A DNA stretch of 64,000 bases from positions 310,001-374,000 of the forward strand of contig JAHQIW010007319.1 in NCBI GenBank assembly GCA_019055375.1, written 5' to 3'. The position numbers and the translations under genes were made by a program. This document shows positions 1-42,790 of this stretch, piece after piece. Below the pieces are notes generated by a model. The model had not been told where the DNA came from. It ran no database searches and was given only the letters and a program-made list of their open reading frames with translations. Each line of letters starts with the position of its first letter. The stretch's first letter is position 1. This stretch comes from Parelaphostrongylus tenuis. Lineage: Eukaryota > Nematoda > Chromadorea > Rhabditida > Metastrongylidae.

Positions 1-354
1 ACAAAACATTTTTTTCTCGAATTTAGGTAAACATGGAGTGAAACTTTTTCGTATCCCTCAAGATAACCACAACTTTAATTTCGAATAAGTGTTTCTACAC
101 TAGCTTGTTACATATTTTCTAAGGGGAATCTGGAGAATGTGAAAAGTTTTCAGTGTCATCTTGCTTCCTGCGCCACCAGGATGGCTCATGGCAAATTTGA
201 CCGACTATTCAAATAATTCAAGTTTCTGTTCAAATCAAAATCAGTATTTATCTGGAGATTAATGATTAATAAAGGCGCAGAGAACTGGATAGTTGAAACC
301 ATCATTCCATTTCCTGTGCTGAAATTTGTGTTGTACATTGTCTGTGCATGTCTA
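1..354. other. No gene seen
   Basis: AT-rich sequence without a convincing exon, RNA gene or repeat boundary on either strand. If the flavoprotein exon at 2,086-2,198 is part of an intact gene, its C-terminal exons would lie to the left; none is visible here. Confidence 0.4.
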
Positions 355-10230: not shown

Positions 10231-10934
10231 ATTTGGAACATTTTCTACATAATTCTCAAACGTGCAGGTCACCGCGAGCTTTGTAAAATCTACAAGGTCA
10301 AAAATCATAAAGACTCGTCTTTTGCAATGCTATGATTTACTTGAAAAAGAAAGACGGAAATAATTTGCTGGACATTGATGAGCTAAGTGCATTGACCTGA
10401 GGTGGCTTGAAAGCACGTGCAGTAACTAATTTGAATCCGTACCTGAGCAAAATCCTTTCATTTTCTTGGAGCCAATAAATTGATACGGACTTGCCTGAGA
10501 GAATACAATTTTTCTACTCTGATACATTACAGCGCCCGTCCTCTCAAGCAACTTCATAGGTTAGACATAAAATCAAATACCTCTACCATATTATGAATAT
10601 AATAGAGTACATAGCTATATTATGAATAGAATTGAGTACATAGCATCAGAGATTGATTAGCCGAATAAGGTGGATGAGAACCAGCCTAGCACTTTATCAG
10701 AGTCAACTTACCAGAGGTACGAAATTCTGGGAAGTCTTTACCATTGATTGTTATTGGTGGAAAGTCAATAGCTGCACGACTACTGCGATAAGAAGGAGGC
10801 AACGAGTTTCCAGAGACTTTAAATAAACGCAAGTTATACGAACAAGTATTCACTTTTTAGCCAGAAAGAGAGAGATATTTTGTAAATAACGAAATTCAGT
10901 GATCAATCTGAATTCTGACAATCTTTTTTTCGTC
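10231..10934. other. No gene seen; short duplication
   Basis: A direct duplication of about 35 bases occurs at 10,585-10,650 (a 'tatgaata(t/g)aat...gagtacatagc' phrase twice). Otherwise no exon or RNA gene is visible. Confidence 0.4.
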
Positions 10935-11004
10935 GCGTCGTCGTTAACCCTTAGTGTGGGGACTGTAGCACCCACGCAGGATTGGCAAAAGAGAAAGGGT
11001 GAGT

Positions 11005-11047
11005 GCCCGACTGACGAGATCGCAACATCGAAACACGTGTATCGAGT
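11005..11047 (+). ncRNA. Hammerhead ribozyme, type I minimal (tandem copy 1)
   Basis: 43 bases in hammerhead order: stem I 5' strand GCCCGA, core CTGACGA (position 7, here C, is not constrained), stem II GAT/ATC with a 6-base loop, GAAA, palindromic stem III CACGTG, cleavage triplet GUA, then stem I 3' strand TCGAGT. Core residues are intact. Stem I has one mismatch and one G-U. The loop-less palindromic stem III suggests dimeric action, as reported for other minimal hammerheads. Confidence 0.7.
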
Positions 11048-11321
11048 TCTAAAAGTCAGCCCTCTTTAATAGACCACGAACATGCGTAGCTCAAAAAAAA
11101 TTATTAGGCAAATTGGAATTTCAGCTGTGGTCTTAAGAAACCACTCAAAACGAAAGATATGATATATTATATATACTAGCCAAGAACAATCGAGTGTGCA
11201 GCGATATGTGTTCGTGGATAATTTCACTGGACATAGAGTGTACAACGTTCGTCGTCGCTAACACTTAGTGTGGGGACTGGAGCACCCACACAGGATGGCA
11301 AAAGACGAGAAAGGGTAACTT

Positions 11322-11364
11322 GCCCGACTGACGAGATCGCAAGATCAAAACACGAATATCGGGC
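11322..11364 (+). ncRNA. Hammerhead ribozyme, type I minimal (tandem copy 2)
   Basis: Same 43-base layout as copy 1: GCCCGA, CTGACGA, stem II GAT/ATC, then AAAA where GAAA is required, a damaged stem III (CACGAA), and a perfect 3' strand TCGGGC. Because the G12-equivalent is lost and stem III is broken, this copy is probably inactive or weak even though stem I is perfect. Confidence 0.6.
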
Positions 11365-11476
11365 TCTATAAGTCAGCCCTCTTCAATAGACCACTGAGAT
11401 GCGTGGCTCAAAAAAAAAAGATTGTCAGGCATATTGGAATTTGAGCTGTGGTCTTAAGAAAACACTAGAAGCAAAA

Positions 11477-21450: not shown

Positions 21451-22389
21451 AAAATAACCATCCTTGCATCATTGTAAGCAGGGAAGACGTTATGCTGAAT
21501 ACGTTGTAGATCGCGTACAAAGAAAAGCAGCAAAAAATCTTTGCGGCAAAATAAGCAGTCAAGAAGAAGGTGGTTACTACCACTTTTTCCTGGTCTGATG
21601 TGTGATTAGAAATCAGCTGATGTTGGATTATGATTTATAGTCCTAATAGGTCAACACACTGAGCTGCTGATTAATGACTTAATAGTTCATTCAGATTTCT
21701 AAAAGAACAGACGAATATCCCACGTTTCTGAAATATGTCGTAAACAAAATCCATCGTTGCGAGTCTCTAGATTACAACGGGAGATTTGGCAACATCTGGC
21801 TCAAATCCCTTCCTCAATTTCGCAGCACAAATAATCAATCAGTCAGTACATCGTGCACACAAACTGACGTTGTTGTAGTGTCAAATTTTAAGCGATCACC
21901 TGTCACCCATAGAGACTTCTAAAGAGACCCAGTTGGGTTGTATCAATTCGCATTTGATAGAATGAATACAATATTGGGCTTCATATGATCGAAATCTCGG
22001 TTTTTCCGATGTTACGTCACTTAGCTGATCTATAGTTAGAATTGTAATGTTTGCTGACTAGAGTGTAGAGAGTCCTGGTCTGGTCCGCCTATCACAACAA
22101 AACGAAATTAGCGATAAATCATGAAGAGTGAAAGCAATTCCCATTGAAAAAGGAAATGATTAGATCAATAAAAGCAAGTAATGTCCTATTTCACCCTGTT
22201 TACCTGAAGTGACTCAATGATTACCATTCTGACTAGTATCGATTTGTTCCAGCTGATGCGCCCTGTGTTCATTATCGTTTTCCGTTCTCTTTCTCACAAT
22301 CACTAGAGGTATTTCGCTTCCTAAAGGTTTATTGCTTTTGATTCTTTTGCAGATTATTCGTAATATTGATTCCTTTCTTATTTACCTAA
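21451..22389. other. No gene recognised
   Basis: AT-rich, no exon with paired splice sites noted and no repeat boundary. Confidence 0.35.
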
Positions 22390-22590
22390 GAGAATTGAGT
22401 GGGGGGCAAAAATACGACTTCAGGCGTGACTGGAACCCGCGTTTCATCCATACCGAGGACGCGTGCTACCATCGCAACACCGAGGTACATTGGCACCACA
22501 GCTTCAAAAAAGCGAGTGTGCGTCCCCGCTATGGATCAAACACGGGTTCGACTCCCGCCTGAGGTCGTATTTTTGCTCACCACTCATTTA
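22390..22590. repeat. Inverted dimer of SINE family 2 (palindrome)
   Basis: The left half (22,397-22,475) reads as a minus-strand family 2 head and the right half (22,508-22,587) as a plus-strand head. 'tgagtggggggcaaaaatac' at the left end mirrors 'gtatttttgctcaccactca' at the right. Each half retains its B box (complement 'ggaacccgcg' near 22,433; 'gggttcgactccc' near 22,543). The whole could fold into one long hairpin. A second, more diverged dimer is at 54,465-54,640. Confidence 0.7.
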
Positions 22591-22976
22591 CGTTAGGTAT
22601 ATATGATATATGGTATAACTTTTGACTCAATGATTAGTACAAATGGTAACACGTGACTGCCGAAGCTTTGATGAGTTGTGTTTCACAGAACAATGCCCAA
22701 TTTTTTTCATCACTAATACGATGCATCGAAATGATCGCGTGTTCCACCTGTGCCTCATAGAACCGTCGAGGTTTTTTCCACCCTATGGTATCATTTTTCT
22801 GCACATTTTTCCACATGTTGCGATGTTTTTCAATATTTATAGTCAGATTTTCAATTAACTCTTCTAGACTCTTTGAAGAATTTTCATCTCACGCGTTTTT
22901 TGAGGAAACTGGCTCACCATACAGACACTACGTCCCTTGGTAGTGGGTTTCGCAACATATGTTGAGTATATTGTAG

Positions 22977-23068: not shown

Positions 23069-23331
23069 GTGACATTTCTAGATCACCTCCCAGGCGGTGT
23101 ATCAGAAACTCCTTTGAAGATCATTTCCATTCTATCTTTCTCTCATAGCTCTCCCCTTGCTTTTCATGTGTCTACCACCCACCTCAACGTAATTTCATTG
23201 AATGTGCTGCATGTGCTGTACATAAATGTATAGGCTATGTTCAATGTTTATTTGATTTTAACCATTTATAATATCTCATAATTACTATTTGAGCCAACAT
23301 GTCATGTGGTCTGTCAATGGGCTCTTGTACA

Positions 23332-23374
23332 GCCCGATACACGTGTTTCGACCTTACAGTCTCATCAGTCGGGC
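23332..23374 (-). ncRNA. Hammerhead ribozyme, type I minimal, fully canonical
   Basis: On the minus strand, 43 bases: stem I GCCCGA with perfect partner TCGGGC, core CTGATGA, stem II GAC/GTC with loop TGTAAG, GAAA, palindromic stem III CACGTG, cleavage triplet GUA with cleavage 3' of A (plus position 23,338). Every conserved core residue of the hammerhead family is present and all three stems pair. This is a self-cleaving RNA by structure; stem III without a loop implies activity as a dimer or with help, as described for other minimal hammerheads. Confidence 0.88.
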
Positions 23375-23905
23375 AGAACACGTCGTCTTTAGTCTTTTTA
23401 GCCAATCCTCTCAGGAGTCCCACTCTCCCTATAATGAGGTAGCGACGACGAACGATTTGCATTGCAAGACAAGTGAAATTATCACCGAACACTGTTGTAC
23501 ACTCGATTGCTCTTTGGCTGGTATTTTTATGATATTATACCTTTATTTCGAGGGTTTTATTAAGAGCACGCTCAAATTTGCATTTATAATCACCAATCGA
23601 CTACATTTGAGACCTTGAATAAAATTCAATATAATCTGATTGGATTTTTCAAGCCTTTCAGAGATCTGGTTAATCGAAATGCCATACCAGACCTCTGAAA
23701 GGCTTGAAAAATCCTATCTAATCATATTGAATTTCGAATTCAAATATAATCGATTGGAAAGTATTGCTGCATGCTTTGTTACGTCGTAAACCATTAAGTG
23801 AAAACTAAGTTTAGACCTCAATATCAAATGATCTTTTCGAATCGTCTGGATTGATACATCTTCAGCGCGGTTATTATCAGTTGTAGGGATGTGAACATGA
23901 AGACA

Positions 23906-34310: not shown

Positions 34311-37300
34311 TGAATTATGCTGGAATTAAAGGAAATCGGTGTGCAATACATCTGTTGAAGTAATGTACGCATCCTTCTCAATGTGTCCTACATAGTAGCC
34401 TATGATTTTGTTCGTGTCACAGACCTAACAACTGTTGTGTCAAAAAAGTGATCACACGGGTTGGAGCCAGCACATTGTTTAATGGCCTCCGTTAAAGGCC
34501 ACCAAAAGTGCTGCTCACTCTGTTCTTTTGAAATCTTCTCATAATTCGTTATTCATCTTTATTGAAACTGAATAAGATATGTTATTCTTGATCACTGATC
34601 CACTAGTGACAATCATTCTTGTTCGCATCAGCCATTTGTCGTGGTTTTGGTTTTCCTCCAATTCATCTATTGACCAATCCTATTGCCTTGAAATTCCATA
34701 GATAAGAGCGATCTGTGCTGGAAATAGGCGCGTACATACATTTTTTTCGCAGAATTTCGTTATGCCCATTTTTTCCTTACCTTTGAATTTTGTCGTTTTT
34801 GACTTTGATTAGATACTTTTTTTCTGAAAAAAATATTTCGTTGTTAAAAATAGCGCGTTCTTGTGTGTCCTTTTTTGTAGAAATTGAACCGTTCCTATCT
34901 ATGGAATTTTAGGGCATGTGTTTCATTCAGTTTGTTGGTTGTGGCGAAGGCCTTGTGTCTTCAATATTCAATAATTACGAAATCACTTAACGTCGTCGAA
35001 GTGATTTTCGGCGTGAGAGGTAGATGATTTGTTCGAACGAGATTCGCATAACTAACTCTTGTGAAAAATCCAGTTTTCTGTGTTTATTTGGCTTCACCAA
35101 GAATTTCTAAGATGCGCGTGACGATTATGTCTAAGAAAAACTTGAGACGCTAGCCTCTCTCAATGAACTGATCAGGTAACATTGCAAAATCATCCCTATT
35201 ACAAATTGTATGCATGGTGTGCGAAGTTCATCGCTTGCTTCATTTGCTAATGTCGCGTTGTAGGGCCGCAAATAGCTTATAAGTCTTAACTGTCAACTCA
35301 AGACCAGCCCAAATGCTGTATGATACAGGAGCTAGAAAAGTTCTTATTGCAGTTCGGACAGCTATAGGGACTGTTGAATATGTTTTTTCAATAGTTTGAT
35401 GGGGTCTGGCACATTGATGGGCCTAGCCCTACAGGAGTCTTTTTTATAGACTTGAGCAAATTTTTGAGAGATTTTCGAAAGTTTTTTTTATGTTCAAATC
35501 AACAGCAAGAACACCAATAATTATTCTTCAAATAAAGATACAAGATATTTGAACCGCTAAGGTCTAATTGCTAGATAGGCACTTGTTTCATCCTACTTGA
35601 ACTCCTCAGTGGCACAGTCTCTTGGTTCAGTCAACCTTGAGGCTATACCCCTCTATGAAGGAATTGACGCCGAGTAATAAATCCCGCAAGTCAGGTGGTG
35701 GAATCCCCTGGCATAGCAGAGACGAGCAGTCGAGCTTGTGGCTGCTAAAATAGATCATACCTCTTAATTGGACCGTTTTTTTCAAAGACCTCGCTTGCAA
35801 CAATAAAATCATGACAGGGATATGGCATGTTTTGAGCCGTTACTACAGAGGGACTGTGCTACTGAGGAGTCCAGGTAAGACAAAACAGCGCTCCTGTCTA
35901 GCACTTAGACCTGACGAACGGCTCAAATCATGTTATATCATTATCAGATTATTACTGTTTCAAGCGGGGTCTGAAAGCAATCCAATGGAGAGGTATTATT
36001 GAAAGTATGGACTACCATTATCCACTACTTTTTTGTAGCATCCTTTGGACAAAGTCAAATTGGTGCAACTTGGTGACAGCGGTCCGCTGTGAAACATCAA
36101 TCTCATCAGCTAAATCACGAGTGCTCGATGAAGGCGCAGCATCCAAGCGGCTTGCGAGTCACTTTCATACGAAACAGATGGCGGGCCAAAACGAGGCATG
36201 TGTTCGAGATCAGAGTTGTCTTCTTTGAATTACATAAACTACTTGCTCATAGTCTAGTCTGTCACCGTACCAGCACCTTCATCCTCATTGATCTCATTGA
36301 CGGCTTCAAGAATCGTCAATTTCTTCTCTCGTAATGGCGGATTAACACACGTGAATCATGCTGTTCAGCAGGCATTATGTAGCTGAAGCCAACGAACTAA
36401 ATGAATATACAGAAAATTACAAGTAAAAAAACGACACAAAGATGTTAGAAAACACGACTCTCAAAAATTCTCCGGAACTTTTTGCTCACCCAGTAGTCCC
36501 GCCTCTCAATTCCTACGCTATTACCGCTGACGGAACTTTGAACAAATTGTGTTAATGATTATTAAATATGTGTAGCAGAGATCCTGGACGCGTATCATCT
36601 ACTTTTCTGAGCTCTTTTCTTGCTCGATAAACTTTAAGCACTATCGCTGCAATAAAAATAGTTCGTTTGGAACAGGTTTGTTGACCTTTCAGCGGCCATA
36701 GCGCCATCTGTCGGATCTTATTTCGCGCTAGTCATAACATGGGATCAATGACAGTGCACTCCACTCTCTGTGGTCAGCTTCTTGTCTTTCCTTCACTATG
36801 CTGACTAGATCTTTCTACTTTATGTTCAAAGAGAATGTTTGCACGAAAAGAAGATGCTCATCAGATTTGCAAAATAAATACTATCATTTGCTGTCTAGGG
36901 CGAGACCGATTTGCCTATGAGCCTAGTGTCTGAGGCAATAATCTAATTTGTTTTCGGTCTTTCGGATTGAGAAAGAATCTCTCTGGGAGGAAAGATGAAA
37001 GCGTAATTTATTTTCTTGGGACTGGACTGTCTCCGTCTTCGCTACTTATCTTCGATCTCAAGTTGGAAGTTTTCTATTTTTACGAGTTCTATGTTTATCT
37101 CCATGCGCTGTTTCGTTCTTTACGCTGAAGCATTAATAACAAATATACAAATATATGGAAAAAAAAACTTGCAGACGAATTCCTAGAGGCTTTCATATGG
37201 AGTGAACTTCACATAATGATCTACCAGAGCTGCTGAGCTGTGGTTGGTGGGACCAGTTTTCTTCTATTAAGGAGGAACAAGTACAAAGTTGGAGGACAAG

Positions 37301-41929: not shown

Positions 41930-42790
41930 CATCAGAAGTTTACGTACGTTACGGCGGTCTCGCCTTCCTCATCCGAGCTACACGCCCCTCCAGTTAAACC
42001 TTTTAAATAGTATGTAAGGGGAGACGCAGCATTTAGGGCCAGGTAACGTGAAATGTTGTTTGGACCATTCTTCAGTCGCTGCCTTGCGAAGGTGATCGAG
42101 TGTTCAAACATTTCCTATCAATCGGCTTTTTTTTGAAAGCCTCATTATAAAATTTCGATATATTCTGAGAGGCTGGAAAAAATAATTGTGGAGCTTCACG
42201 CCAAATTGACGAACAGCTGACAAGGTGATGCAACAGAATCGCTCTCTTAATTTATGAGCACTAGTCGCAAATGTTGCACCTTTCAATGTTAACGCATTTC
42301 ATCAACATTTTAGCAATACTTCCCTGCTGCGATAAGTTAACTGTGATTCAGAACATTACACTAATCAATTTCATGTTTCAAACGCAAAAAAATCGTTGCA
42401 TTCTCGTAAATTGGTCTTCGACTAGTGTAATTGATTTTCATCATTGGTTTTTGTGCACAAAATCATTCATTCCACTCTCAAAAAGGAGAACTTTTCATCC
42501 ATTTAATGTCATATAATGCCTCTCTTTTCGACTGTTTCTGAGACCTCGCTCAAAAGCAGTCGAAAAGAAAATGATTACATAGCACGTTTCACCAGCCACG
42601 AGTAACTGGCTGTTAACACTGCACGATGGGTGGTCTTCTTTTCTAACGGCAGTGCAAGATGTATGTCGTCGATTCCTTTATATGCGGAGGGTTTACTCAC
42701 CTATAAGGGATTGGCTGAAACGAAAGGCATTGTGCAAATGAAGAGGCTGGAAGGCCGAAACATGAGCTCTGCGTTATGTATGTGCCATAA
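41930..42790. mobile_element. Decayed element with two outward hammerhead-like ends
   Basis: Minus-strand copy at about 41,937-41,985: GGATGA core, stem II GGCG/CGCC with AGAC loop, GTAAC in place of GAAAC, palindromic ACGTACGT. Plus-strand copy at about 42,733-42,775: AATGAAGA core, GGC/GCC stem II, GAAAC intact. The 90 bases before the right copy match those before the hammerhead at 29,439. A hairpin (42,526-42,570, CTTTTCGACTG/CAGTCGAAAAG) resembles the one inside the 29.2-kb element. Same family, more eroded. Confidence 0.45.

Follow-up and report, generated by a model that had tools for sequence, protein, structure and literature searches.

Among the closest described systems are the non-LTR retrozymes of animals (Cervera and de la Pena 2020, PMC7229834), whose type I hammerhead ribozymes are recorded in the accessible text of that paper from cnidarians, molluscs, rotifers, flatworms, annelids, crustaceans, insects and amphibians. 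Dimeric action has been established for the hammerheads of newts, according to the accessible portions of PMC6155905 and PMC7229834, and a palindromic stem III was noted by Perreault and others (accessible text of PMC3088659). The word stem "nematod" was absent, on a word search, from the main texts of PMC7229834, PMC7761336, PMC3088659, PMC6155905 and PMC4918200, and the word "ribozyme" was likewise absent from the accessible text of the Parelaphostrongylus tenuis genome paper (PMC10940269). Literature searches combining hammerhead and nematode terms, in which subscription papers were thinly covered, gave no nematode family among the matches listed, in agreement with the original prediction, which named no nematode family described with this exact form.

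The hammerhead described here lies in a 64,000-nucleotide stretch of P. tenuis DNA (the whole stretch analysed, referred to as the window) and sits in a retroelement-like repeat of this nematode, which bears out the earlier association of the motif with retroelements. The repeat, designated family A, belongs to a kind of element already known and is of note for the phylum in which it occurs, for its copy number and for having a stem III that is palindromic. It fits the description of metazoan retrozymes in the accessible text of PMC7229834: family A shares with them a type I hammerhead, a multi-copy unit of about 300 bp (150-450 bp as published; approximately 316 bp here, with 3,002 core matches), a GC content below 45% (45-50% being the published upper bound; 42.2% in the window element and 41.5% in the family A majority unit) and, at the window copy, a target-site duplication longer than 4 bp (10 bp). 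The monomer is highly self-paired in the majority unit (circular fold z -5.36, 58% paired) but not in the window copy, which as a whole folded no better than shuffled sequences (circular z 0.12). The retrozymes of that text form long direct tandems, whereas family A occurs mostly as opposite-strand neighbours or single units, and family A differs further in a stem III that is self-complementary through its centre and in having a nematode host.

The dimeric hammerheads of newt and axolotl (Amex1) resemble those found here in that a weak stem III becomes a longer helix in the dimer; in Amex1, however, the accessible text of PMC7229834 and PMC6155905 gives one pair capped by a palindromic tetraloop, in contrast to palindromes of 8, 10 or 12 nt in the present families. 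The minimal hammerheads of Penelope-like elements and Terminons also have a very short stem III, but they are described, in the accessible text of PMC6155905, as being without helix III and tertiary contacts, unlike the family A majority sequence with its outer 7-bp stem I and bulge. The Sm-alpha repeats of Schistosoma, also parasitic worms although of another phylum, are likewise mobile and carry a type I hammerhead.

The type I hammerhead, for which cleavage is predicted, was located on the minus strand at 23332..23374 from its core, a structural descriptor and a sub-gathering Rfam match. Read from 23374 to 23332, the strand contains a full type I core and three helices (the invariant CUGANGA...GAAA...UH being present): stem I is GCCCGA/UCGGGC (6 bp), the core is CUGAUGA, stem II is GACU-GUAA-GGUC (4 bp, final pair U-G, loop GUAA) with GAA next, and stem III is the loop-less, self-complementary ACACGUGU. 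H17 is an A, the complement of 23338, and cleavage is predicted 3' of that A. The original prediction had described an invariant core and three stems within 43 bases of the minus strand, a GUA triplet cleaved 3' of the A complementary to 23,338, a 6-pair stem I and a loop-less palindromic stem III, all of which were found in place. Its term "minimal" calls for a qualification, since the family A majority sequence has in addition an outer stem I of 7 bp with a bulge; this outer stem, the membership of a repeat and the further copies in the window had all been overlooked. In the window copy the extended domain (23319..23381, minus strand; identified with the R1 model and pair counts) has an outer stem I of GUUCU/AGAGC with one mismatch and a 6-nt bulge, UGUACA, which could carry the usual tertiary contact. 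The domain scored 91.9 bits with the R1 model, the alignment of which includes the window copy itself.

When a 361-bp sequence was searched against Rfam, Hammerhead_1 (RF00163) was matched over model positions 1-45 of 45 with 27.7 bits (E 7.3e-5), together with one chance-level match to another family, and no match was obtained for the whole window at gathering scores. A score below the gathering score of 34 bits, which is a curators' cut-off and not a structural feature, was the outcome that the original prediction had itself named as one that would refute it; it is outweighed here by the evidence from the repeat family. The hammerhead was not the minimum in single-sequence folds of 43, 69 and 111 nt, and these folds were weakly or not better than those of shuffled sequences (z -1.64, -1.85 and -0.46, respectively).

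The window hammerhead was found to be part of a complete family A element of one unit (308 bp, 23273..23580, minus strand), delimited by unit-copy alignment and by a perfect 10-bp target-site duplication, CATTTATAAT, present on the plus strand at 23263..23272 (left copy) and 23581..23590 (right copy). A tandem pair of family A units was found at 10895-11418, with partial tandems elsewhere. One unit of the pair carries a diverged hammerhead with an intact core (10998..11060, plus strand; 63.7 bits with R1, in the model's alignment), in which stem II is altered to GAUC-GCAA-CAUC with 3 of 4 pairs, and the next carries a hammerhead (11313..11379, plus strand; 58.9 bits with R1, also in the model's alignment) in which stem II has the compensatory form GAUC-GCAA-GAUC and the G of GAAA is lost. 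A decayed family A hammerhead at 42725..42787 (plus strand) scored 31.9 bits with R1 and is outside the model's alignment. Two inverted repeats were also observed in the window: one at 23622-23734 (49-nt arms, 90% complementary, 15-nt spacer), which is MITE-like and adjoins the putative retrozyme, and one at 22376-22606 (87-nt arms, 82% complementary, 57-nt spacer).

When the 481.5-Mb assembly (5,105 contigs) was searched with a 31-nt family A core allowing up to 2 mismatches, 3,002 matches were obtained (1,472 + 1,530), compared with 0 for the reversed control. A 261-bp query around the motif gave at least 56 genome matches at 80-100% identity, a lower bound since 40 of 5,649 first-look candidates were scored. 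Neighbouring segments lay on opposite strands at 17 of 19 family A loci (L022-L040, some of which are duplicates), and many segments in these loci ended near unit position 40-54. Target-site duplications at p<0.01 (uncorrected) were detected for 3 of 18 insertions (the window copy, 10 bp; L028, 10 bp; L035, 8 bp), and the search for duplications gave nothing at p<0.01 for the other 15. Target-primed reverse transcription accompanied by inversion is suggested by this untidy arrangement. No reverse transcriptase was found in the family A unit, Pfam gave no family for ten frames of the window, and a tRNA scan of the window gave none. The window copy is traversed by frames without stops, of 97 aa on the minus strand and 118 aa on the plus strand, which counts against a retrozyme; in the doubled majority unit the longest such frames were 53 and 91 aa.

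Covariation was assessed over 29 family A copies, in which the hammerhead helices together with the 7-bp outer stem I and 6-nt bulge had standard pairs in 89.6% of cells. Changes on both sides were present in 8 of the 21 hammerhead pairs, compared with a mean of 2.8 after shuffling; this number was reached in 0 of 500 shuffles, and structures slid along the alignment gave at most 4. RNAalifold, applied to the 29 copies, predicted stem II but not stem I, in whose place it gave three pairs of a competing hairpin. A second set, consisting of 29 units of at least 200 bp, was scored on a circular fold predicted for the majority unit. Double-change cells numbered 15 in the hammerhead domain (3.4 shuffled, slid at most 6), compared with 17 outside it, where no excess was observed over the shuffled (13.4) or slid (18-33) controls. 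Double-change pairs numbered 12 outside the hammerhead (10.9 shuffled, 15-24 slid) and 20 in the whole unit, above the 14.2 of shuffling but no higher than the 19-27 of the slid controls, and a conserved structure of the whole family A unit was therefore rejected as unsupported. As the excess is confined to the hammerhead, it is the ribozyme, and not the remaining RNA, that bears the pairing signature.

Likeness to the majority sequence in the 29 units was 94.7% for the core, 91.1% for the 43-nt motif and 84.8% for the rest of the unit, most of these copies having been recruited with a query that contained the motif. Recruitment with a motif-free query, which reduces this bias, gave a less favourable picture. 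At least 45 matches were obtained (40 of 3,401 candidates scored), and the hammerhead region was present in all 29 recruits examined out of the 44 matches other than the window, with a deletion in one. Core and stems were intact in 11 of these 29, and conservation of the core did not significantly exceed that of the remaining motif (325/348 versus 817/899, P = 0.17). From their sequences, we read these recruits as being mostly decaying insertions of a master that presumably had an intact ribozyme.

Hammerheads were also found to be present in at least two further families (B and C) of the genome, which differ from family A and from one another in sequence and length. The Rfam model identified at least 31 hammerheads at E <= 0.001, at least 20 of them above the gathering score, with 74 of 119,811 candidates scored. 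The 20 read, all above gathering, carry the stem II of family B, which resembles the GUCC...GGAC of Sm-alpha. The window copy of family A was not among the 31, and the Rfam model therefore probably overlooks much of this family. The family B unit is 285 bp (locus L016), and the window contains two decayed family B units at 35532..35996, arranged head to head and both carrying a CTGAGGAG-type hammerhead. Family C hammerheads were found in L016 and L057, the latter being a 3-kb locus in which hammerheads of families A, B and C were observed together. A possible fourth type, with a stem III near ACAGGCCUGU, was observed in L013 at 31-95 (minus) and 181-244 (plus).

A descriptor that demanded only the outer two pairs of stem III was used to collect 30 distinct intact hammerheads from the fetched loci and the window, and in 23 of these, drawn from families A, B and C, stem III was self-complementary to its centre (G-U allowed). 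The self-complementary forms were ACACGUGU, ACAAUUGU and AUACGUGU in family A, AUAGGCGCCUAU, ACAGGCGCCUGU, ACAGGCGUCUGU and ACAGGUACCUGU in family B, and ACACCGGUGU in family C, the variants within a family being related sequences and not independent events. Across the three families the palindrome is 8, 10 or 12 nt long (8 nt in family A). Since a loop-less palindrome cannot fully close on itself, a lone RNA would keep only part of stem III. When one example per family was folded as two strands (without flanks), the minimum was exactly a double hammerhead in which the whole palindrome forms stem III (-35.7, -40.7 and -48.3 kcal/mol for A, B and C, respectively). For a lone strand the minimum was a different fold, below the hammerhead by small margins of 1.8 (A), 0.1 (B) and 2.0 (C) kcal/mol. 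Concentration, flanking sequence and tertiary contacts do not enter into the two-strand calculation. The ribozyme probably acts mainly as a dimer, either inside a multimeric transcript or between two RNAs. A stronger reading, that several nematode retrozyme families are obligate-dimer hammerheads whose centre-palindromic stem III keeps the ribozyme off in a lone RNA and switches it on only in multimers or paired RNAs, is a tentative one that we consider more doubtful than probable; it was rated lower because the lone-strand margins are only 0.1-2.0 kcal/mol.

Among other sequences of the assembly, 102 exact copies of the 22-nt SL1 spliced leader were observed (reversed control, 0), which marks the genome as that of a nematode. 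Many of these copies lie in a regular 568-bp tandem array (L041 and L042; G000:C3131), which gave 36 matches to the Rfam SL1 model, the best of 47 bits being below the gathering score of 75. No Rfam match was obtained at gathering score in L041, and therefore no 5S rRNA is present there. A 442-aa open frame close to an SL1 leader copy (L045:2-1327, minus strand) matched Pfam DUF1759, as in the gag proteins of Pao/BEL-type elements.

Three other explanations of the motif were weighed. A chance resemblance would be in keeping with an Rfam score under gathering and with the loose CTGATGA..GAAA pattern, which was no commoner in the window than expected (3 found, 2.16 expected, not significant) and was rejected as evidence, having no excess over chance. 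The strict descriptor (the core, a stem I of 6 bp, a stem II of 3 bp or more and a paired stem III), however, gave a single match when both strands of the window (GC 39.8%) were searched and 0 matches in 940 Mb of random sequence having the dinucleotide frequencies of the window, which together with the 3,002 genomic matches to the 31-nt core refutes this explanation; its probability is negligible. It is quite unlikely that family A is a SINE-like or satellite repeat whose ribozyme, though present, has ceased to matter. In favour of this reading, most of the copies examined are diverged, and the motif-free recruits gave the core no significant advantage over the rest of the motif; against this, the motif and its palindromic stem III are common to three families unlike in sequence, and the covariation is specific to the hammerhead.

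The hammerhead might instead belong to an autonomous Penelope-like element of this genome, as part of its non-coding ends, family A units being such ends in detached or truncated form. Penelope-like elements have a reverse transcriptase, with a GIY-YIG domain in many, and Penelope insertions resemble the inverted and partial neighbouring copies observed here; their small hammerheads are said to have been found by Lunse et al. in 2017 to cleave as dimers. In L034 a reverse-transcriptase fragment (L034:170-598) was found approximately 0.7 kb from a family A copy, and in L038 a weakly similar fragment approximately 0.5 kb from one, the two resembling each other at E 2e-5 and both lying within 1 kb of family A. 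The L034 fragment, whose motifs seem to us reminiscent of Penelope-like elements, had 20 relatives, the named species being in Angiostrongylus, Necator, Heligmosomoides and Parelaphostrongylus; those in Angiostrongylus include proteins named reverse transcriptase, with identities of up to 72% among the relatives in that genus, and 3 of 7 relatives scanned matched Pfam RVT_1. Pfam gave no family for the two fragments themselves, and a PDB search with the L034 fragment found none. Both fragments are decayed, however, and occur at 2 of the 19 loci (L022-L040); moreover, L024 aligns to L034 (92.7%, 2.5 kb) but not over the stretch of the fragment, so that its vicinity to family A looks incidental. 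The window copy, in addition, stands free as one unit flanked by a duplication of its own. The link between the fragments and family A is accordingly a weak lead, and a Penelope-like origin is improbable, having been rated lower because the near-duplicate L024 lacks the fragment.

Most probably, family A is a non-autonomous, non-LTR retrozyme present in thousands of copies in this strongylid nematode, and the motif is its ribozyme, which appears to favour the dimer. What the computations show is the family and its copy number, covariation of the hammerhead helices, an insertion footprint that is clean in one case, and a predicted two-strand fold that is the double hammerhead. As for the transcription, cleavage, circularisation and mobilising enzyme of family A, we infer a course that borrows two of its steps, ligation to a circle and reverse transcription in trans, from the retrozyme model in the accessible text of PMC7229834. 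Family A units would be transcribed, partly as multimers, and two hammerheads, in the same multimer or in two RNAs, would pair by means of the 8-nt palindrome of stem III and an exchange of stem I strands. The paired hammerheads would cleave 3' of GUA, the monomer RNA would be circularised by a host RNA ligase, and a reverse transcriptase acting in trans would copy the circle into new sites, where short duplications of the target would be left and part of the copy would often be inverted.

A retrozyme of this kind would extend hammerhead retrozymes, which are makers of circular RNA in other animals, to the nematodes, and family A alone accounts for 3,002 recognisable ribozyme cores in this genome. 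The three natural families, with palindromic stem III of 8, 10 and 12 nt, allow a direct test of whether hammerheads can act only as dimers. If the obligate-dimer reading is true, only tandem (or rolling-circle) transcripts would be cut, and the frequent head-to-head copies in the genome would be the footprint of copying from paired RNAs.
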